A DNA stretch of 64,000 nucleotides from contig JANYJY010000022.1 of the NCBI GenBank assembly GCA_025358295.1, positions 62,001 through 126,000 of the forward strand, given 5' to 3'. The notes below the pieces were generated by a model. That model had not been told where the DNA came from. It searched no databases and worked only from the letters and a program-made list of their open reading frames with translations. Numbering within the stretch: the first letter of the stretch is position 1; each line of letters starts with the position of its first letter. The stretch comes from Gammaproteobacteria bacterium (GTDB taxonomy: Bacteria > Pseudomonadota > Gammaproteobacteria > Steroidobacterales > Steroidobacteraceae). Below are positions 36,958 through 47,021 of this stretch, in pieces. The position numbers and the translations under genes are program-made.

Positions 36958-38130
36958 TTAACTGAAAGCCCGATCAAGCGCCTGACTGAGATCCTGAATG
37001 AGATCCTCGACGTCCTCCAGACCAATGGACAAGCGCACGGTTCCGCGGGTGATCAGCGCTGCCGCCCGCTGCTCCGCCGTGTATTCATTGCCGGCCAACA
37101 ACTGCGGCGGCATCACCAACGACTCCGCGGATCCCACGCTGGCTGAAATTGAGAACAGCTGCAGCGCCTCGGCAAAGCGGGCGCCCTGCTCCAGGCCCCC
37201 GTCCAGCTCGATCGTCACCACCGCGCCGAAATCGGTCATTTGCCTACGGGCCAGCGCGTGCTGGGGATGGCTTTCAAGTCCCGGATAGTAAACGGCTTTG
37301 ACCCGCGCATGGCTTTTCAAAAATAGGCCCGCCGCCTGCGCGTTCGCGCACTGCCGTTCATAGCGCAGGAAATACGTGCGCATCCCCCGCTGAATGAGAA
37401 ATGCGGCGTGAGGATCGAGAGTCGGACCCATAGATGAGAGGTCCTTGCGCATGGCATCGATGAGCTCGCCGCGGGCAATAATGGCGCCGCCCATCACATC
37501 GCCATGGCCCGACGCGTACTTCGTGAGGCTGTGCAGGTAAATATCGATATCGTAGGCGCCGTGGTTGTGAAATCCTGCAAAGGTGTTGTCGAGCACCGTC
37601 AGGGCGCCCGCTCGCCGTGCCTGCTTGGTCAGATGTTCGATGTCGGCAATCTTGGTGACTGGGTTGGTGGGGCTTTCGAATACCACCAGGCGAGTGGGCG
37701 ATTCGCGCAGTACGCGCTCGATGCCCGCTAGATCCTCGATGGACAGCAGGGTGTGAGTCACACCGAATTTCGCCAGCAAATGCTGCACGATGTAACGCGT
37801 TGGACCATAGGATTCGATGAAGGCGAGAATGTGATCGCCCTGCTTGCACAGCGATAGGAGGCTTGCCGCGATGGTCGCCACGCCCGACCCTGTCAGCAGA
37901 CAATCGTCTCTGCCCTGTAGCTGCGCCAGCAGCAGTTGCAATTGCTTCAGGGTGGGGTTCGAGGATCGCGAATAGAAAAAGCCGTCTCTCTCGCCACGCA
38001 GGTAGCTTAAGGTCTCAGCCGTGTCATCGAAGGAGAACTTCACGGACTGATAGATCGGCGCCACGAGGGAACGATTGTCCTCGGGCATGGGAACAGCGGG
38101 CGGATGGTTCACCAGCGTGTTGTTTTTCAT
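36958..38130 (-). CDS. Cystathionine gamma-synthase/lyase family PLP enzyme
   Basis: PLP enzyme of the Cys/Met metabolism class (fold type I), about 390 residues. The cofactor lysine is in HSLTKYASGHGDVMGG. Other family blocks are FFYSRSSNPTLKQLQ, LTGSGVATIAASLLSL, FESPTNPVTKIADI and SVGSAESLVMPP. Whether it is a synthase, lyase or methionine gamma-lyase cannot be decided by eye. I prefer the ATG at 38130; a GTG at 38139 is also open. It sits on the same strand between the two HDOD genes, 79 bases from one and 62 from the other, with no other sulfur-metabolism gene nearby. Confidence 0.88.
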   Translation of the reverse strand: MKNNTLVNHPPAVPMPEDNRSLVAPIYQSVKFSFDDTAETLSYLRGERDGFFYSRSSNPTLKQLQLLLAQLQGRDDCLLTGSGVATIAASLLSLCKQGDHILAFIESYGPTRYIVQHLLAKFGVTHTLLSIEDLAGIERVLRESPTRLVVFESPTNPVTKIADIEHLTKQARRAGALTVLDNTFAGFHNHGAYDIDIYLHSLTKYASGHGDVMGGAIIARGELIDAMRKDLSSMGPTLDPHAAFLIQRGMRTYFLRYERQCANAQAAGLFLKSHARVKAVYYPGLESHPQHALARRQMTDFGAVVTIELDGGLEQGARFAEALQLFSISASVGSAESLVMPPQLLAGNEYTAEQRAAALITRGTVRLSIGLEDVEDLIQDLSQALDRAFS

Positions 38131-38192
38131 ACTTCGCACGATAATCGAGCGCCGCCCGCATTGAAAGCGACCATTTTACCCGCGCTTGCCGT

Positions 38193-39083
38193 CTAAGGCG
38201 CGAGGTAGCGGTCCAGCTCAGCGCTGATGCCGGCGGCCGCGTCGAACAAAGCCTCGCCGTCGGATTCAGTCAGCCCCAGATCCAGGTAGGCCGCCGTCGT
38301 CATGAGCAGATCGCGGCCCAAGCGCGTGGCGTCGAGCAAGGTGAAATCCGCGAGCGCGTGCGCCACATTCACCACATTGCATTCGAATCCCGCGAAGCCA
38401 GCCGACTCGTACGCCTGCCATTGCGCCGTCACGGTGAGTATGGGTGACGGTAAGGACCAGGCGGCAACCACGCGCGCACCCACGGGGTGGTGAAATGTCT
38501 CGATGAGACGGTCGTAGTCCTCGCCGGTCAGTTTCTTGCCCGCGGCTTGGGCAACCTCATACACCGCAGCCAAGGTCACCACCTTGCCGATGTTGTGCAG
38601 CAATCCGCACAGGTAGCACGTGCCGGTTTCTCGAGCCAGCATATGGGCCAATTGCCGCGACCACAGTGCGCTCGCCAGCGAGTGACGCCACAAGCGCCTT
38701 GCCTTGTGCTGTTGTCCCTTCACGTCCAAAATTTTTCCCTGCAATGCCAGCGTAAAGGCCAGGTTCGCTACTTCGTCGAATCCCAGCCAGGCGATCGCAT
38801 GCGGCAAAGTCTTGATGGGCGATGCGGGTCGTTTCGCCGCGGATCCCGCGACGCGCAACACATGCATGGTAAGCGCCGGATCCGCGTTGATGATGTCCGC
38901 GAGTTGCTGTGCGTTGGCCGAGTCATTGGGCCCGGTGCGCGCGACGCGAAAGGCCACCTCCGGCAATAGCGGCACCGCCAGATCATCGCCCGCCAGACAT
39001 CGTTCGAAGAGGCCGTGGACGATCTCGCAACTACCCAGCTCGACCGGCACGCGGCTTGTGGGTGACATCGGTAGTTCCTGCAT
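38193..39083 (-). CDS. HDOD domain signalling protein (second copy)
   Basis: A 296-residue HDOD protein, paralogous to the one at 36012-36878: LLPEVAFRVARTG, IINADPALTMHVLRVAGS, LPHAIAWLGFDEVANLAF and CGLLHNIGKVVTLAAVYEV align with the same order of blocks. The segment LHNIGK keeps an HD-like His but not the full metal site. No output domain is attached. A divergent promoter region of 77 bases separates it from the pseudogene at 39161. Role probably regulatory; target unknown. Confidence 0.88.
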   Translation of the reverse strand: MQELPMSPTSRVPVELGSCEIVHGLFERCLAGDDLAVPLLPEVAFRVARTGPNDSANAQQLADIINADPALTMHVLRVAGSAAKRPASPIKTLPHAIAWLGFDEVANLAFTLALQGKILDVKGQQHKARRLWRHSLASALWSRQLAHMLARETGTCYLCGLLHNIGKVVTLAAVYEVAQAAGKKLTGEDYDRLIETFHHPVGARVVAAWSLPSPILTVTAQWQAYESAGFAGFECNVVNVAHALADFTLLDATRLGRDLLMTTAAYLDLGLTESDGEALFDAAAGISAELDRYLAP

Positions 39084-39160: not shown

Positions 39161-41609
39161 ATGAACGCCGTTGCCGATATATCGGGGTACGCCCGACGCC
39201 GTGAAGATCTCGAACCTGAATCGCGGTTGCGGGAAATCCCCTATAACTAGCCTCACTGGCCGATTGAGAAATCGTCATCCGCCTGCTGGGCGACGATGCG
39301 TGGGGCGTTCTCGATGATCTGCGCACCGATCAAGCACACCGACGCGTTCAAGATCAACGAGGACGTGGTCATTCCGCTCGAACGGCTCGGCGAATACACC
39401 GACGCCATCGAACGCATCAACATCGAACTGTCGATCCGCAACAAGCTCGAGCTGCTCGACGCCCTCGACGACTATTTCTCGGGCGACATCAAGGCGGGAA
39501 AGACCGCCGATGTCGACATGCGACGCAAGAGGGAGGCTCACGACCTGCTGGCCGGTGCCCGCGCGCGTTGGCAGTACTTGCTCGGCGCCGTGGACACGCC
39601 GGTGGGCGAGGCGCGGGCCGAGCTGGATGCCCGAGGAATCACGCTGCCGGTCGAGGCCCTCGGAACCATATTCGATAAGTTGCAAGACCGCAGCATTCGA
39701 GTGAGCTGGAAATCAGAAGTCCTCGCCAGCCTGACTCGAATATTCGGCGGCGCCGCCTTCGCACAGGTGCTCGCAGAGTGCGAGGCCGTGCACAAGCGCG
39801 TGCTGCAGGGACGCGTGTTCGTCGCCCTGCACATGCACGCCGGCGACGGCAACGTGCACACCAACATCCCGGTGAATTCCGATAACTATGCCATGCTGCA
39901 CGCCGACAACCGCACTGTGGCGCGTATCATGCGAATTGCGCGATCTCTCGATGGCGTGATTTCCGGCGAACACGGCATCGGCATCACCAAGCTCGAGTTC
40001 CTCACCGAAGCGGAACTCGCGTCGTTTCGCGCCTACAAAATGCGGATCGATCCCGACGGCCGGTTCAACAAACATAAATTGATGCCTGGCAGTGATTTGC
40101 GCCACGCCTACACGCCGAGCTTCGGGTTGTTGGGGCACGAATCCTTGATCATGCAGCAGTCGGACATCAATACGATCTCCGATGCGATCAAGGATTGCCT
40201 GCGCTGAGGCAAATGCAAGCCGGTATGCGCCACCCATGCGCCGCGCGCCAATTTATTGTATTCGCCGCGCGACAAAATTCTGGCGACATCGCTGCTGATC
40301 GAGGCATTTTTTATACGAAGAGCAGACGCGCCGCGGCGTCTCTCTGCAGCATTGGGACGAGCTCTCCGACGTGGCCGATCACTGTACCGTCTGCCATAAA
40401 TGCGAATCGCCCTGCCCTGTCGATATCGATTTTGGCGATGTTTCCATGGCTATGCGCGACCTGCTGCGCCGCATGGGGAAGAAGCGCTTCAATCTCGGCA
40501 ACGCCGCATCCATGTTCTTCTTGAATGCCACCAATCCTGAGACCATCAAACTCACCCGCAAGGTCATGATCGACTGGGGCTACAAGGCACAGCGCGCCGC
40601 CAATGGCGCGTTGAAAACCTTTGCCAAGGCGTAAACCAAACGCCCGCCGGCGACCGAAGGCAGGCCCCCGATCAAGGAGCAGGACTTCCACTTCGTCAAT
40701 AGGCGCATGCCCGGCGGATTGCCGAAGAAGACCGCGCGGGCATTGCTCGACATCGAGGACCGCAATTACGTACCCATCATTCGCGATCCGCTCAAGACCA
40801 ACAGCGAATCAGAAGCGGTGTTCTATTTTCCAGGCTGCGGCTCGGAGCGCTTGTTTTCACAGGTGGGTCTCGCGACCCAGGCCATGCTGTGGCATGTCGG
40901 CGTGCAGACCGTGCTGCCCCCGGGGTATTTGTGCTGCGGTTACCCGCAAAGGGGCGCCGGCGAATTCGACAAGGCCGAGAAGATCATCACCGATAATCGC
41001 GTGCTGTTTCACCGTGTCGCCAACACGCTGAATTACCTCGATATCAAGACGGTGGTAGTGAGCTGCGGAACCTGTTTCGATCAGCTTCAGGGATACAAGT
41101 TCGAGGAGATTTTCCCCGGCTGCAAGATCATGGACATTCATGAATACCTGATGGAAAAAGGCGTTCGGCTGGAAAACGTCACCGGCGTGCGCTACCTGTA
41201 TCACGATCCCTGTCATTCGCCCATGAAGAAGCACGATGCACTGAAAGTCGTGAATACCCTGATGAACAGCGAACAAAACGGACAGATCCAGAAGAACGAC
41301 CGATGCTGCGGCGAGTCCGGCACGCTCGCCATCAGCCGACCCGACATATCGACTCAGGTGCGCTTTCGCAAGGTAGAGGAATTGCGCGGTGGTGTCGACA
41401 CCATGCGCGCGGCAGGTCACCGCGGCGAGATCAAGATTCTGACATCCTGCCCGTCTTGCTTGCAGGGCCTGAAGCGCTACAACGCCGACACTGAGACGGA
41501 CGCCGATTACATCGTGATCGAAGTCGCTAAAAATCTACTGGGACCGGACTGGCTGCCGCAATACGTACAGCGCGCCAACGCCGGGGGCATTGAAAGAGTG
41601 CTGGTCTGA
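39161..41609 (+). pseudogene. Decayed FAD-linked oxidase/4Fe-4S/CCG-domain oxidoreductase (DUF3683 type)
   Basis: Remnant of a large fused oxidoreductase (normally well over 1000 residues; N-terminal DUF3683, FAD domains, ferredoxin-like part and two CCG domains). The ATG at 39161 starts ...RLREIPYN, then TAG at 39248. One base is missing there, and the continuing frame EIVIRLLGDDAWGVLDDLRT also has CGA changed to TGA at 39265. At about 39325 sequence jumps to the FAD-oxidase C-terminal domain (IKHTDAFKINEDVV...), so the whole FAD-binding domain is deleted. TGA at 40205 replaces the second Cys of CLRCGKC. A six-T run at 40307-40312 has one extra T. TAA at 40632 replaces an expected CAA. The last 300 residues (CCG domains: CCGYPQRGAGEF, DRCCGESGTLA) are intact. 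Clearly non-functional as a whole. Confidence 0.9.
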
Positions 41610-41612
41610 AGC

Positions 41613-41657: not shown

Positions 41658-43331
41658 TCAATTGCCCGAAGTGCTGGTGCGTCGAATGAACCCCACCACA
41701 TTGTCGTGCAATAACTTGAGCGAGGATTCCTTGGCGTACACCATATGACCGGAATCGTAGAATTTGTACTCGATGTTGGACTGCAGATTCGGCGGAATCG
41801 GCAGGTGATGCATTTCGTACACACCCTGATAGTAGGGGGTGGCGAGATCGAAGTAGCCGGCATGCAATTGAACCTTCAGATTCGGGTTGATCTTCATTGC
41901 ATTCGCAAGATCGGGCATGACATTGGATCCCTGGCGCGATGAAAGCGGCTGCTGATTCTGCCCCGGCAGGCGGTGCTGGAAGTTCCAGGTCCTGAACAGC
42001 GGAATGCTCTGCTTGAAGTACTTGCCCTCGCCGTAATGCAGATCCTTGCGCGCGTATTCATTGAATGCGGAAACGTAGGCTGAACCGAGCGCAGAGGCCT
42101 GCGGGTCGTAATCGGCTCGCTGACTCAACGGATCGATGTCCGGACCCGAGAATCGCGTATCGAGTCTGCCCGTCGTCATGCCGTCGCCGCCGCGAAGGTT
42201 CTGTCTGAATTCGCCGCCATCGATGCGCAGGTCCGCCCTCAATATGTAGTCCACCGGCAGTCCGGTGTATTGATGCAGCTTGTCGGCGATTGCGGCGCGA
42301 TCGGCCGCGCCCAGCTCGGACCCGGCGGCGAGTGCCCGTGCGTAGTCTCCCATGGCGAAATGCTCGACTTCTGCCAGCAGGGTCTCGAGATCCTTGTATT
42401 CGCCGCTGAGCTTGTGGTGATACCAGGCCGTTGCGGCGTAGGTGGGCAATACCGTCTGGTATGGCACATCGATGCCGGGGTTTCCCGTCGGCCGATCGGG
42501 ACTCAGATCGAAATTGAGAATCTGCGACAGCAGGATCACACCGTTGAAATCGATCGAGCGATCCGCCTCCAGCTGGTTGATCAACACTGCAGATCGCGGC
42601 GTGCCGTAGCTCTCGCCGAACAGATATTTCGGCGAATTCCAGCGACCGTACTTGGACAGAAACTGCGAAATGAACTCCGCGAACGCGTAGGCGTCCTGAT
42701 CGACGCCATAAAAGGCCTTCTCCTTATCCTTGCCCGCTACGCGGCTGAAACCCGTGCCGGGTGCGTCGATGAACACGAGATCCGTCGCGTCGAGCAGGCT
42801 CGAGCTATTGTTGACCAGGGAATACGGCGCGGCCGGTGTGTGTGCATCGGTGGACGTGACGACACGGCGGGGCCCGAAAGCGCCCATATGCAGCCACAAA
42901 GTCGCGGAGCCGGGACCGCCGTTGTAGACGAAGGTCACGGCCCGATTGCCGCCGCCGTTCTTAAAGTAGGCGACGTAGAACATCGAGGTTTCCGCCGCCG
43001 GATTCTTGGACTCGCCGCCCTCGTCCCCCGAGGGTGATCCCGCCTTGTCGGCCTTGGGGTCGCGCGGCACATCGTCCCAATCTTTGGGATGCACGATGAA
43101 GGTGCCGGCGATCGCCTGATACGCCACGACCTGCCCGCCGATGGTGACCGTGCCCGTGCTCGAGATCGATTCGGGCTTGAAGGCCTCGAATTTTCCGCCC
43201 TCCGTCTTCTCGGAATCACCATCGGGCTTCTTGTCAGCGGCGCTCGGTGTGCCGGCGGCAAACGCCCCCGCTGCGGATAGGGACAAAACCAATCCCACCA
43301 CAATGCCGGCCGACGACCTGAATCGATTCAT
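41658..43331 (-). CDS. S10 family serine carboxypeptidase-like protein
   Basis: Exported peptidase of 557 residues from the ATG at 43331 (GGGAGAG ribosome site; a longer open frame upstream overlaps the aminotransferase). A signal peptide ends at AAGAFAAG. The alpha/beta-hydrolase core has the oxyanion motif YNGGPGSATLW, the nucleophile S241 in FGESYGTPRS, the Asp in HAGYFDLATPY and the His in YDSGHMVY. Linkers are Gly/Lys/Asp-rich. This matches the bacterial S10 (carboxypeptidase Y-like) group, expected in the periplasm or outside the cell. Substrate unknown. Confidence 0.92.
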   Translation of the reverse strand: MNRFRSSAGIVVGLVLSLSAAGAFAAGTPSAADKKPDGDSEKTEGGKFEAFKPESISSTGTVTIGGQVVAYQAIAGTFIVHPKDWDDVPRDPKADKAGSPSGDEGGESKNPAAETSMFYVAYFKNGGGNRAVTFVYNGGPGSATLWLHMGAFGPRRVVTSTDAHTPAAPYSLVNNSSSLLDATDLVFIDAPGTGFSRVAGKDKEKAFYGVDQDAYAFAEFISQFLSKYGRWNSPKYLFGESYGTPRSAVLINQLEADRSIDFNGVILLSQILNFDLSPDRPTGNPGIDVPYQTVLPTYAATAWYHHKLSGEYKDLETLLAEVEHFAMGDYARALAAGSELGAADRAAIADKLHQYTGLPVDYILRADLRIDGGEFRQNLRGGDGMTTGRLDTRFSGPDIDPLSQRADYDPQASALGSAYVSAFNEYARKDLHYGEGKYFKQSIPLFRTWNFQHRLPGQNQQPLSSRQGSNVMPDLANAMKINPNLKVQLHAGYFDLATPYYQGVYEMHHLPIPPNLQSNIEYKFYDSGHMVYAKESSLKLLHDNVVGFIRRTSTSGN

Positions 43332-43360
43332 GCTTGCTCTCCCATAAATCGCGTGTCTCG

Positions 43361-44539
43361 TTATATCTGGCGTTCGAACCACTGACGCAGCGCTGCAAAG
43401 CCGCGCGCGACGTGCGATCGGCCGAAGCCCACTCGCAGGCAATTTTTCGGCACGGGGCCCAGCTCCGAGCGATAGACGCTCGACGGTAGAAATAAAACGC
43501 CCGATTCCTCGACCAAGCGGCTGGTAAATTTCTCCACTCCCTCCGCTCCCTTGTAGCGGATGAAGCCGATACAGCCGCCGTCGGGCTCATGCCACTCGAA
43601 TAGATGCGGGTAGTCGGCAAAGAACGCACTCACGATGGCGAGATTGTCGCTCACCACCTGGCGGTTCTTCTGAAGGATCCGGTCCCGGGCTTTGAGCGCA
43701 ATCCTCGCCAGCACCTCGGAGGGCGCCGCATTGCATATGGATAGAAAATGCTTGTAGTGCTCGAACCTGACCAACATTGCCCTGTCCTTGCAAGCCAGCC
43801 AGCCGATCCTCAGCCCCGCGAGCCCATAGGCCTTCGACATCACATTGAGGGAAATGCCGCGCTCATAAACATCCACGACCTGGGGCAATCGGCGTGCCGG
43901 ATCACGTTCGATCAGGCGATACACTTCGTCGCTGAACAGCCAGATACCCCGGCTGCGGCAGAGCTCGACCACGGCATCGAAGGTTTCGCGAGCAAGGATC
44001 TTACCCGTGGGATTATTCGGAAAATTGATGGAAATCAACTTGGTATTGGGCCGCAGCGCCGCACGCAATAGATCGACATCCAGATCCCAATGGCTATCGA
44101 TATCGAGCGGCACGCCGGTTACAGCGCAAATGCCCAGCGGAATCGTCTCAGCTGCCTGGTAATTCGGCGTGATGACGATGACGTGATCATCGGGCTCGAG
44201 CAGTACCCGCATCGCCACATAGATGCCCTCCTCGGCGCCGGCGAAACACAGCAGGTGCCCCGGCAGCACGCTGTCATAGGTCTTCGCGATTTCATCTCGA
44301 AGCGCCGGAGCACCGAATGTCTCCGTGTAGCCGAGGCCTACGTTATCGAATGCGGCCCGATCCTCCGGGCTTGCCAATGCCAGCAACTGCGCGAGCGTCA
44401 TGTTTTCGCCGTCGGAACCCGCCAAATTGTACTTGGCGGCAAACTCCCACTTGGAGAAGAAAACCTCCAGTGCAAAATCCCTCATGTGTCTTGGGTGTAT
44501 GCCATTCACTTCGCCCTGACTCATGGATTGCCCGCCCAT
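43361..44539 (-). CDS. Class I/II PLP-dependent aminotransferase
   Basis: Fold-type I aminotransferase of 392 residues. Family marks are SINFPNNPTG (Asn and the NPTG turn), FSDEVYR (Asp to the pyridine nitrogen), NVMSKAYGLAGLRIGW (cofactor Lys and phosphate-binding Arg), and a C-terminal carboxylate-binding Arg in NCLRVGFGRS. The substrate cannot be told. It starts at the ATG at 44539 (a second ATG at 44524 is possible) and lies 29 bases upstream of the S10 peptidase, so the two may be co-transcribed. Confidence 0.88.
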   Translation of the reverse strand: MGGQSMSQGEVNGIHPRHMRDFALEVFFSKWEFAAKYNLAGSDGENMTLAQLLALASPEDRAAFDNVGLGYTETFGAPALRDEIAKTYDSVLPGHLLCFAGAEEGIYVAMRVLLEPDDHVIVITPNYQAAETIPLGICAVTGVPLDIDSHWDLDVDLLRAALRPNTKLISINFPNNPTGKILARETFDAVVELCRSRGIWLFSDEVYRLIERDPARRLPQVVDVYERGISLNVMSKAYGLAGLRIGWLACKDRAMLVRFEHYKHFLSICNAAPSEVLARIALKARDRILQKNRQVVSDNLAIVSAFFADYPHLFEWHEPDGGCIGFIRYKGAEGVEKFTSRLVEESGVLFLPSSVYRSELGPVPKNCLRVGFGRSHVARGFAALRQWFERQI

Positions 44540-44686
44540 TTATTTTGACCGCGTTGCTTTAAGGTCAAGTATGCCACCGGCTTGAACCCTCAAGACTGCC
44601 AGAAGCAGAGCAGGAAGGTGTTGCCGCTACGCGCTTACACCTCGACGGTCTGCCCTAGTCACATGTTCCAAAGGCATGACCATCCC

Positions 44687-44733
44687 TTGACATGACACCA
44701 GAATAGAACCATTATAGAACCATAATGGTTTCT
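44687..44733 (+). promoter_or_regulatory. Promoter and palindromic operator of the toxin-antitoxin pair
   Basis: A consensus -35 box TTGACA (44687-44692) stands 17 bases before CATTAT (44710-44715), a fair -10 box. The -10 lies inside an inverted repeat: AACCATTAT (44707-44715) and ATAATGGTT (44722-44730) with a 6-base spacer. This is the expected layout for autorepression by a ribbon-helix-helix antitoxin. GGAG at 44741-44744 serves the antitoxin ATG at 44751. Confidence 0.75.
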
Positions 44734-44750
44734 AGACGACGGAGCAGAGT

Positions 44751-44996
44751 ATGGCCACAACGTTGACGCTCAAAAACATTCCGGACGAGATCTATAACCG
44801 GCTGAGACTCTCGGCCGCGACCAATCGCCGCAGCCTGAACAGCGAAGCTATTGTGTGTTTGGAGACGGTACTGCTACCGATCAAGCTCGGGGCCAACGAG
44901 CGCTTGACCCGCGCGCGTAAATTGCGGGCGGAACTAGCCCCGCTTAAGTTTCGTGCACGCGACATTGATACCCTGAAGCGACAGGGTCGCCCATGA
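44751..44996 (+). CDS. FitA/VapB-type ribbon-helix-helix antitoxin
   Basis: An 81-residue protein. The N-terminus (TLTLKNIPDEIYNRLRLSAATNRRSLNSEAI) is a ribbon-helix-helix DNA-binding domain of the Arc/FitA kind. The C-terminal tail is basic and should wrap the toxin. It overlaps the toxin gene by 4 bases (ATGA), so antitoxin is translated first. A promoter with a palindromic operator lies directly upstream. The surrounding sequence is more AT-rich than the rest of the window, which fits acquisition by transfer. Confidence 0.9.
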   Translation: MATTLTLKNIPDEIYNRLRLSAATNRRSLNSEAIVCLETVLLPIKLGANERLTRARKLRAELAPLKFRARDIDTLKRQGRP

Positions 44997-45382
44997 TTGT
45001 GGTGGACACCAGCGTAGTGGCATACCTATACCTTCCTGGCGAACACACAGCAGATGCCGAAGCGCTACTCGAGCGCGACCCGGAATGGGTAGCGCCGGTC
45101 CTCTGGAGAAGTGAGTTTCGCAATATTCTCGCGGGCTACATGAGGCGACGGGCAATCACGTTTGAACAAGCCCACAGACTGCAGAGGGAAGCAGAGAGCT
45201 TGCTCTCCGGTTCGGAGTTCGAAGTTGACTCGCTTACCGTTCTTGAACTCCTACGCGACAGCGATTGCTCGGCTTACGACTGCGAATTCGTAGCACTGGC
45301 GCAGAAGCTCGATACCAAGTTGATAACACTGGATGGCAAACTGTTACGTGCATTCCCAACGCACTCGAATAAACTTGTTTGA
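44993..45382 (+). CDS. VapC-type PIN-domain toxin
   Basis: A 129-residue PIN-domain ribonuclease. The four acidic metal ligands are present: D5 (VVDTSV), E41 (RSEFRN), D96 (AYDCEFVALA) and D114 (TLDGKLL). Such toxins cut tRNA or rRNA and are neutralised by the antitoxin encoded just before, with which it overlaps by 4 bases. It appears intact, so the pair is probably active. Target RNA unknown. Confidence 0.92.
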   Translation: MIVVDTSVVAYLYLPGEHTADAEALLERDPEWVAPVLWRSEFRNILAGYMRRRAITFEQAHRLQREAESLLSGSEFEVDSLTVLELLRDSDCSAYDCEFVALAQKLDTKLITLDGKLLRAFPTHSNKLV

Positions 45383-45580
45383 CGTCGGTATTTCCTTATA
45401 ACTTGCCAAACTGACCTCTAATTAATGCTTTCGCACACAAAGGTTTAATAACAAATCTTCTATTAAAGTTTCTTGTGTTGTTTTGAAATCATAACCATAT
45501 GATTGTGTTGGATATGCGCTACGAACGGCCATTCGATGACAATTTCGCCCAGCGACAAAGAGTGTCCGAACCTTTCCCGG
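45383..45580. other. AT-rich spacer after the toxin gene
   Basis: About 200 bases with unusually low GC for this window, especially 45395-45500 (runs such as CTAATTAATGC and AATAACAAATC). I see no convincing gene, RNA or terminator. It may be flanking DNA brought in with the toxin-antitoxin pair. Confidence 0.5.
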
Positions 45581-46021
45581 CTACGGTACGCCCCCAATCA
45601 ACCGCACCTCGCATTGCGCATACGGAATGCCGATGCTGCGCCGACGCAGTTCCTCGATCAACGACAGATTCAGTTCACCTGCGACAGGTCCGTAATCGGC
45701 CACTGCAACCCAGGGCTTGATCACTATTTGCACCGCTGAGTCTGCCAGGGTCACTACTTGAATCACCGGTGTCGGCTCCGCCAGGACACGCGGATTCGCC
45801 TTCACAAGATCGCGAATCGTGGAAAGCGCTAGCTGTAAATTAGACTCATATGCCACACCGACACGGATTTCCGACTGACGGATTCTGCCGTAGTTGTGCA
45901 GAATTTCGCCCACCACCTTGCAATTGGGCACGATGACCCGCGAGCGATCGGGATGGATGAGCGCCGTTATCGACGAATTGCGCCCTTTCAGGCTCCCGAT
46001 GTACCCTCCTGGGGGGATCAA
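45581..46021 (-). pseudogene. MscS-type mechanosensitive channel, C-terminal fragment
   Basis: Encodes only the cytoplasmic beta and alpha-beta domains of an MscS-family channel: GGYIGSLKGRNSSITAL, DRSRVIVPNCKVVGEILHNYG, SEIRVGVAYESNL and VIKPWVAVADYG. The reading frame opens at 46021 exactly where the pore-lining TM3 helix should precede, and no membrane segments are found in the 170 bases upstream. All three TM helices are therefore missing and the fragment cannot form a channel. It looks like the residue of a deletion or recombination at about 46010-46025. Confidence 0.8.
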
Positions 46022-46193: not shown

Positions 46194-47021
46194 CTAGTCG
46201 GCTGCTTTGTCCAGCTTGGCCCGCCGCGCCATCCACAGGCTCACGCCGACGATCATCAGCGTGACCACGGTGATGGTGATGGTCGCGAGCACGTTGATTT
46301 CCGGGCTGACGCCGAGCCGCACCTTGGAGAACACCACCATGGGCAGAGTGCTGCTGCCCGGTCCCGAGGTGAAGCTTGAGATCACAAGGTCGTCCCACGA
46401 CAGGGTGAAGGCCAGCAGCCACCCGGACAAAATGGCGGGAAAAATAATCGGCATCGTAATGACGAAAAATACCTTCAGCGGGCGGGCGCCTAAATCCATG
46501 GCCGCTTCTTCCAATGCCGTGTCAAAAGTCGCCAGGCGTGAATTGACGATCACCGTGACATAGGCCATCGAGAACGTCATGTGACCGATGGTCATGGTGG
46601 TGATGCCGCGTCCCGCCGGCCAGCCGATCAGCTGCTCCAACGCAACGAACAACAATAGCAGAGACAATCCGGTGATGACCTCGGGCATGACCAACGGCGC
46701 CGTGGTCATCGCATTGAGAGTAAAGCGTCCCCGGAATTGGCTGAAGCGCGCCAATCCGAATCCGGCCAGGGTGCCGAGAATGACCGATCCCGATGCATTG
46801 ATGACGGCGACTTTGAGCGAGATCCAGGCGGCATCGAGTATCTCGTCATTGCCGAGCAGCGCGTAGTACCACTTGAGCGTGGGTGAATGGGCGCTGTCCC
46901 ACACCGTCACCAGCTTCGATGCGTTGAATGAAAACACCACCATCGACAAAATGGGGATGTAAAGAAATGCGAAACCGAAAGCCAGGCAGGTGATGATGAA
47001 GTACGAGCTTTTATAGTTCAT
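46194..47021 (-). CDS. potI: Putrescine/spermidine ABC transporter permease, PotI/PotC type
   Basis: Second permease subunit of a polyamine importer, 275 residues with about six membrane helices. The permease EAA loop, which contacts the ATPase, reads EEAAMDLGARPLKVFFVITMP. The N-terminus FIITCLAFGFAFLYIPILSMVVFSFNASK is typical of PotC/PotI. The ATG at 47021 overlaps the potH stop by 4 bases. It is the last gene of the potFGHI operon. Confidence 0.93.
   Translation of the reverse strand: MNYKSSYFIITCLAFGFAFLYIPILSMVVFSFNASKLVTVWDSAHSPTLKWYYALLGNDEILDAAWISLKVAVINASGSVILGTLAGFGLARFSQFRGRFTLNAMTTAPLVMPEVITGLSLLLLFVALEQLIGWPAGRGITTMTIGHMTFSMAYVTVIVNSRLATFDTALEEAAMDLGARPLKVFFVITMPIIFPAILSGWLLAFTLSWDDLVISSFTSGPGSSTLPMVVFSKVRLGVSPEINVLATITITVVTLMIVGVSLWMARRAKLDKAAD

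Follow-up and report, generated by a model that had tools for sequence, protein, structure and literature searches.

The segment at 39161-41609 on the forward strand of the window probably is a young, nonfunctional remnant of a single-copy gene for a phosphoglycerate-oxidizing oxidase, still lying at its ancestral locus. The window is the whole 64,000-nucleotide stretch analyzed (G000 C20:62001-126000), taken from a Steroidobacteraceae assembly of 4.02 Mb (74 contigs, 97.5% complete); palsa and bog, which occur among the isolate names of its genus, point to peat as a likely origin. We consider it likely that in this genus the oxidase and the NAD-dependent phosphoglycerate dehydrogenase SerA are interchangeable and that the window holds one loss in progress. 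An initial annotation of the DNA, made without database searches, had described a FAD/Fe-S oxidoreductase in decay, which was borne out by the lesions, the domain set, and an open ortholog; what we add to that description is a likely role for the enzyme and the finding that the genus has lost it repeatedly.

The lesions were called by translating 39161-41612 in three frames and aligning the result, by dynamic programming that allowed stops and frameshifts, with P0001, a 1300-aa open ortholog from G014, a genome of the same genus. The gene opens with an ATG, but a long oxidoreductase can be followed through it only by changing frames, as no single reading frame spans it. Six events were found, one of them a large deletion, where at least five had been claimed, and the alignment revealed no further stop, frameshift, or insertion within 39161-41612. 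The initial annotation had proposed a comparison with the full-length gene in relatives, and the G014 ortholog recovered each listed lesion at its coordinates: the one-base loss with a TAG near 39248, the extra T at 40307-40312, the changes from CGA to TGA at 39265, TGC to TGA at 40205, and CAA to TAA at 40632, and the missing FAD-binding region, the junction of which had been put near 39325 (Table 1). The deletion takes out most of DUF3683 and all of FAD_binding_4 (G014 residues 188-333). DUF3683, at residues 22-138 in G014, is left only with the part before residue 58, itself broken, and the in-frame cysteines of the 4Fe-4S region are lost through the stop at Cys834 and the frameshift at residue 867. 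FAD-oxidase_C, CCG, and DUF3400 each score above their curated cutoffs in the remaining stretches. The G014 residue is kept at 715 of 813 aligned codons, in line with the high conservation claimed earlier, and the uninterrupted run of 300 C-terminal residues extends to the last 324 codons (40635-41606). At the DNA level, the 5' part of the pseudogene aligned poorly. Several independent disabling lesions, seen against open orthologs at the same locus, thus support the interpretation of 39161-41609 as a decayed FAD/Fe-S oxidoreductase gene. A repeat-mediated origin of the deletion was considered and rejected: the end regions, compared in five relatives, share no word of more than 6 bases.

Table 1. 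Features of the oxidase remnant and its neighbors in the window
Feature	Coordinates	Strand	Basis
MetC-like neighbor (name presumed), 393 aa, no visible break	36958..38139	-	Alignment to relatives; locus marker in relatives
HDOD-domain neighbor, no visible break	38193..39083	-	Alignment to relatives, domain profile
Pseudogene of DUF3683/FAD/4Fe-4S/CCG/DUF3400 oxidase (proposed FAD-type phosphoglycerate dehydrogenase)	39161..41609	+	Start ATG and final TGA recognizable
One-base loss at ~39249 (G014 residue 30), giving first stop TAG after 29 codons	39248..39250	+	Frame-aware alignment
TGA replacing Arg36 of G014	39265..39267	+	Frame-aware alignment
Junction (~39331) of 1454-base deletion (G014 residues 59-542 plus 2 bases)	39329..39333	+	Frame-aware alignment
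Open stretch left with FAD-oxidase_C (profile 146-247 of 248)	39332..40204	+	ORF list, domain profiles
TGA at Cys834, 4Fe-4S region (Fer4_8, residues 828-907)	40205..40207	+	Frame-aware alignment, domains
One extra T in T run, frameshift (residue 867) within 4Fe-4S region	40307..40312	+	Alignment
TAA at Gln976	40632..40634	+	Frame-aware alignment
C-terminal part without interruption: CCG (two stretches) and DUF3400	40635..41609	+	Domain profiles
Peptidase S10 family neighbor, no visible break	41658..43442	-	Alignment to relatives, domain profile
ABC transport permease (which we take to be PotI), no visible break	46194..47021	-	Alignment to relatives, domain profile; other locus marker

The intact protein P0001 carries DUF3683, FAD_binding_4, FAD-oxidase_C, 4Fe-4S, CCG, and DUF3400 in one chain of about 1300 aa. 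Judged by its domains, it resembles BPHYT_RS03150 and HSERO_RS19500, which Price et al. (2018; PMC5764234) describe with the same architecture (DUF3683, FAD-binding, FAD oxidase, 4Fe-4S dicluster, CCG, and DUF3400); the window copy differs in being broken and in belonging to the Steroidobacteraceae, not the Burkholderiales. In the literature searched, DUF3683 and DUF3400 are each mentioned by that paper alone. As reported there, serA could not be found in B. phytofirmans and H. seropedicae, and this "FAD-linked oxidase" was put forward as the phosphoglycerate dehydrogenase that serine synthesis seemed to lack. Most defined media required the B. phytofirmans gene for good fitness, a defect that serine partially rescued, and that of H. 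seropedicae appeared essential, no gene with serine-rescued mutants being found in that organism; neither of the two proteins complemented an E. coli serA mutant (PMC5764234). A Rhodoferax protein with 68% identity is listed as an expected SerA in PMC11535334, the only later work bearing on the role of the oxidase that we found in the literature searched. The phosphoglycerate dehydrogenase role thus is proposed and biochemically unproven.

SerA and the oxidase have unrelated folds and cofactors. Under the proposed role they serve the same step, and in the genus their distributions are complementary. An intact oxidase would oxidize 3-phosphoglycerate at its FAD domain and, as its domains predict, would pass the electrons on via the 4Fe-4S/CCG centers; the product would feed SerC, so that the job of SerA would be done without NAD. 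Lineages of the genus would keep either the oxidase or SerA and lose the other, the window being one such loss in progress. Substrate, electron route, and the reason that the loss is tolerated are what we infer in this scheme.

In order to determine how the two genes are distributed, 23 genomes of the genus were surveyed. Relatives of the C-terminal 300 residues, at 76 to 91% identity, occur in 13 genomes other than that of the window, and these 13 hold an unbroken oxidase; the open frame is full length in 10 and is cut in 3 (G002, G008, and G010), where a contig ends or N bases intervene, with no stop in the visible part. The SerA survey started from 70 matches to the 2-hydroxyacid dehydrogenase domain at E <= 1e-30, of which 68 were typed; the other two, in G021 and G013, are relatives of the fusion described below. 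Five genomes (G003, G004, G005, G016, and G017) have a TIGR01327-type SerA, 76 to 100% identical to the G016 protein, and the typed matches that are not SerA reach at most 42% identity to any of three SerA reference types. An open reading frame of G021 at C148, taken for SerA by its length, proved to be a paralog. None of the five SerA genomes has an oxidase match at the 76 to 91% level, and the two genes occur together in none of the 23 (Fisher P = 0.0048 for the 22 genomes without G000 and 0.0075 with it). Neither gene is unbroken in G000, G011 (72% complete), G013 (82%), G021 (94%), and G022 (84%). SerC is present in 22 of the 23; the classical SerB model TIGR00338 gave no match at E <= 1e-10 in any.

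The SerA genomes are scattered on a tree built from up to four proteins per genome, requiring five changes, and a SerC tree (20 of the 22 SerC genomes) scatters them likewise. Simulated SerA histories with five tips avoided the oxidase in 83 of 11497 runs on the four-protein tree, which has weak nodes and some genomes with one marker, the rates having been estimated from these same observations. Divergence among the SerA proteins roughly tracks that of the markers, G003 and G017 being closest in both, and a gene that presumably is CysQ-like adjoins SerA in G003, G004, and G016. With tree support low, this distribution may reflect reciprocal loss or repeated gain. We also noted a second aminotransferase (about 415 aa, with a weak match to the SerC model) before SerA in G004, G005, and G017; only pieces match in G003 (L181 3347-4002) and none in G016 (L184), perhaps another decay in the serine pathway.

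The locus itself has a conserved order (MetC-like, HDOD, oxidase, peptidase S10, aminotransferase, and permease), some relatives being without some members. Only 75 bases in G003 and 196 bases in G016 separate the MetC-like and permease genes, and in G004 a receptor-like gene, judged by eye, lies there. This reading covers the loci of G003, G004, G016, G021, and G013 (one side), in which no oxidase remnant was found beyond weak matches (blastn E values of 0.004 to 0.07; tblastn E values of 0.005 to 0.03) that we took for chance. It excludes G022 and G005, where a close permease marker was not found and the locus may be unassembled, G017, where the locus is cut by a contig end, and G011, with an oxidase-like match of 27 residues where a contig stops. 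Because sites are empty in these relatives and a remnant persists in the window, the genus appears to hold finished losses alongside an unfinished one.

Outside the genus, the pattern is looser. P0001 was searched against 150 genomes of the family, a sample of a larger group, and matched 78 of them at E <= 1e-60, in some cases partially. With G000 set apart as broken, the oxidase was counted in 77 of the 150, again including partial matches: 48 genomes have the oxidase and a SerA of any type, 29 the oxidase only, 65 SerA only, and 8 neither, G000 included (P = 0.00014, a value inflated by relatedness). Of the 68 oxidase genomes that lie outside the genus, 48 have in addition a SerA-like gene of a different type, 390 aa long (L142 type), which occurs in 109 of the 150 genomes and in none of the 15 genus members in the draw; the E. 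coli-type SerA (NF008759) passes its cutoff in 1 of the 150. Since this putative SerA so often accompanies the oxidase, exclusion is not general. At least one of the two genes is nearly universal in the family, and strict exclusion is a feature of the window genus.

The window genome keeps SerC, which serves vitamin B6 synthesis as well (PMC9997740). No SerA of the three types was found in it among sequences that keep the NAD-binding domain. G021 likewise has neither SerA nor the oxidase, with no oxidase remnant beyond chance, at 94% completeness. Because no SerA was found in either genome, a simple swap fails for the window lineage unless its SerA is unassembled, and the failed complementation in E. 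coli, the co-occurrence outside the genus, and the absence of matches to TIGR00338 also speak against the serine-swap model. That neither gene is intact in the window genome may be due to a gap in the assembly, to a different enzyme, or to reliance on external serine. The strong 2-hydroxyacid dehydrogenase matches of the window genome are L118 and L120 (319 and 320 aa; best model PRK06487), L119 (319 aa; best model glyoxylate reductase), which lies beside a TonB-receptor-like gene judged by eye, and the fusion L121 (L264 1591-3699, C12), which joins a Gfo/Idh/MocA-like half to a 2-hydroxyacid dehydrogenase half. At E <= 1e-30, within the genus, the fusion is common only to the window genome, G021, and G013, all three without both genes. 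By sequence, each of L118, L119, L120, and the fusion may be a candidate for a third enzyme at the SerA step. L118 and L120 have relatives in oxidase genomes also, and we rejected the fusion as a SerA substitute because it sits among genes that by eye look of polysaccharide type. Tentatively, the oxidase might be a true NAD-independent phosphoglycerate dehydrogenase that was exchanged with SerA several times in the genus, the window lineage and G021 having given up both and relying on outside serine or a third enzyme.

We think it unlikely that the oxidase acts on a different 2-hydroxy acid, such as D-lactate, glycolate, or D-2-hydroxyglutarate, in which case its loss would be unrelated to serine and the exclusion of SerA would be due to chance or shared ecology. 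Its best solved relatives by sequence are a "putative oxidoreductase" followed by glycolate, D-2-hydroxyglutarate, and D-lactate dehydrogenases. These GlcD-type enzymes share FAD_binding_4 and FAD-oxidase_C with the oxidase but measure 464 to 481 aa against its roughly 1300 residues and, to our knowledge, are without the fused Fe-S/CCG/DUF3400 part. Such a role could be covered by two further FAD-oxidase_C genes, of 500 and 479 aa, that remain open elsewhere in the window genome, and it would fit both the E. coli result and the finding that oxidase genomes outside the genus often have a SerA-like gene as well. Against it stand the mutant fitness and partial serine rescue reported for B. phytofirmans (PMC5764234) and, within the genus, the presence of SerA in 0 of 13 oxidase genomes versus 5 of 9 without the oxidase.

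Sequencing or assembly errors in a gene that is intact in the organism were considered as a rival reading; in its favor, the assembly is in 74 contigs and one lesion falls within a T run. Six lesions lie in 2449 bases, however, versus none seen in eight neighbors spanning about 9.4 kb, and three point stops and a 1454-base deletion are not homopolymer slips. The neighbors align to relatives over 435/435, 475/475, 287/288, 392/393, 294/296, 589/594, 377/392, and 274/275 residues of the window open reading frames, which served as queries, so that a break merely shortening the end of a frame would escape. Because all eight look unbroken, it is unlikely that base-call errors, the objection anticipated in the initial annotation, struck one gene alone, and we regard an intact gene as very improbable. 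No second close copy of the oxidase was found in the window genome, which makes the gene single copy, and internal stops are confined to this genome among the 78 with matches (0 of the 77 others, partial matches included).

Some side observations were made at the locus. In the window, but not in G014, the aminotransferase and permease genes are separated by an insert that carries a FitA-like antitoxin and PIN-domain toxin pair (44751-45382, +) and an open stretch of 146 aa (45584-46021, -) with only the C-terminal domain of an MscS channel (PF21082), probably a second truncated gene; the GC content at 44001-46000 is 0.54. In G014, the MetC-like gene (L022 3-744) matches in two frames near a contig start, which may be due either to a break or to an error at the edge of the assembly.

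When placed in a tree together with 26 orthologs, open or partial, the window copy groups as sister to G014. Branch-specific codon maximum likelihood on six taxa and 810 codons estimated omega as 0.067 for the window branch and as 0.050 for the rest of the tree, which is not a significant difference (likelihood ratio test [LRT], 1.79), and rejected an omega of 1 over the whole window branch (LRT, 58.7). Residues 977-1300 showed some relaxation (0.077 versus 0.032 on other branches; LRT, 4.1). The three stops correspond to a neutral time of about 0.04 substitutions per site (Poisson range, 0.008 to 0.117); a codon model with the neutral time placed at the end of the branch favored 0.003 (95% grid set, 0 to 0.017), and the two clocks overlap only at 0.008 to 0.017. 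Of the changes unshared with the outgroups L023 and L025, the window copy has 40 that are nonsynonymous and 45 that are synonymous, against 19 and 66 in G014; such simple counts suggest that relaxation may be somewhat greater than in the likelihood fit. Of 359 residues invariant among the full orthologs compared, 4 differ in the window copy; the 23 open genes differ at 0 to 10, so that nothing here points to long neutrality. The earlier claim of recent inactivation gains support: the codon likelihoods, both clocks, and the counts of changes agree with a loss late on a long branch, probably after roughly 1 to 2% neutral change.

It is hardly likely that the shortened gene is still in use, with its 303-aa or 300-aa stretch serving as a CCG/DUF3400 or FAD-oxidase_C protein. 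The long open stretches do have ATG starts, and omega stays low at residues 543-833 (0.064 on the window branch versus 0.068 elsewhere), but the FAD-binding domain and an Fe-S cysteine codon are gone, the clearest relaxation lies in the C-terminal part, and recent loss predicts a low omega anyway. Reading of the gene through selenocysteine or other recoding together with frameshifting, to which the exact position of a TGA at a cysteine of the 4Fe-4S region might point, has a negligible chance given that this TGA is accompanied by a further two stops, a pair of frameshifts, and the deletion of a domain, and given the lack of a stop inside the matches of all 77 other genomes.

Bacterial pseudogenes are common, and the interest of this one lies in its gene, a member of a family that is a proposed, biochemically unproven replacement for SerA. 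The exclusion of oxidase and SerA in the genus, together with a loss caught halfway, adds a comparative line of evidence that does not depend on mutant fitness, and it supports the proposed role. The genus comparison also names genomes and loci in which the phosphoglycerate dehydrogenase claim can be tested. If the window lineage truly is without both genes, the source of its serine would become a testable question.
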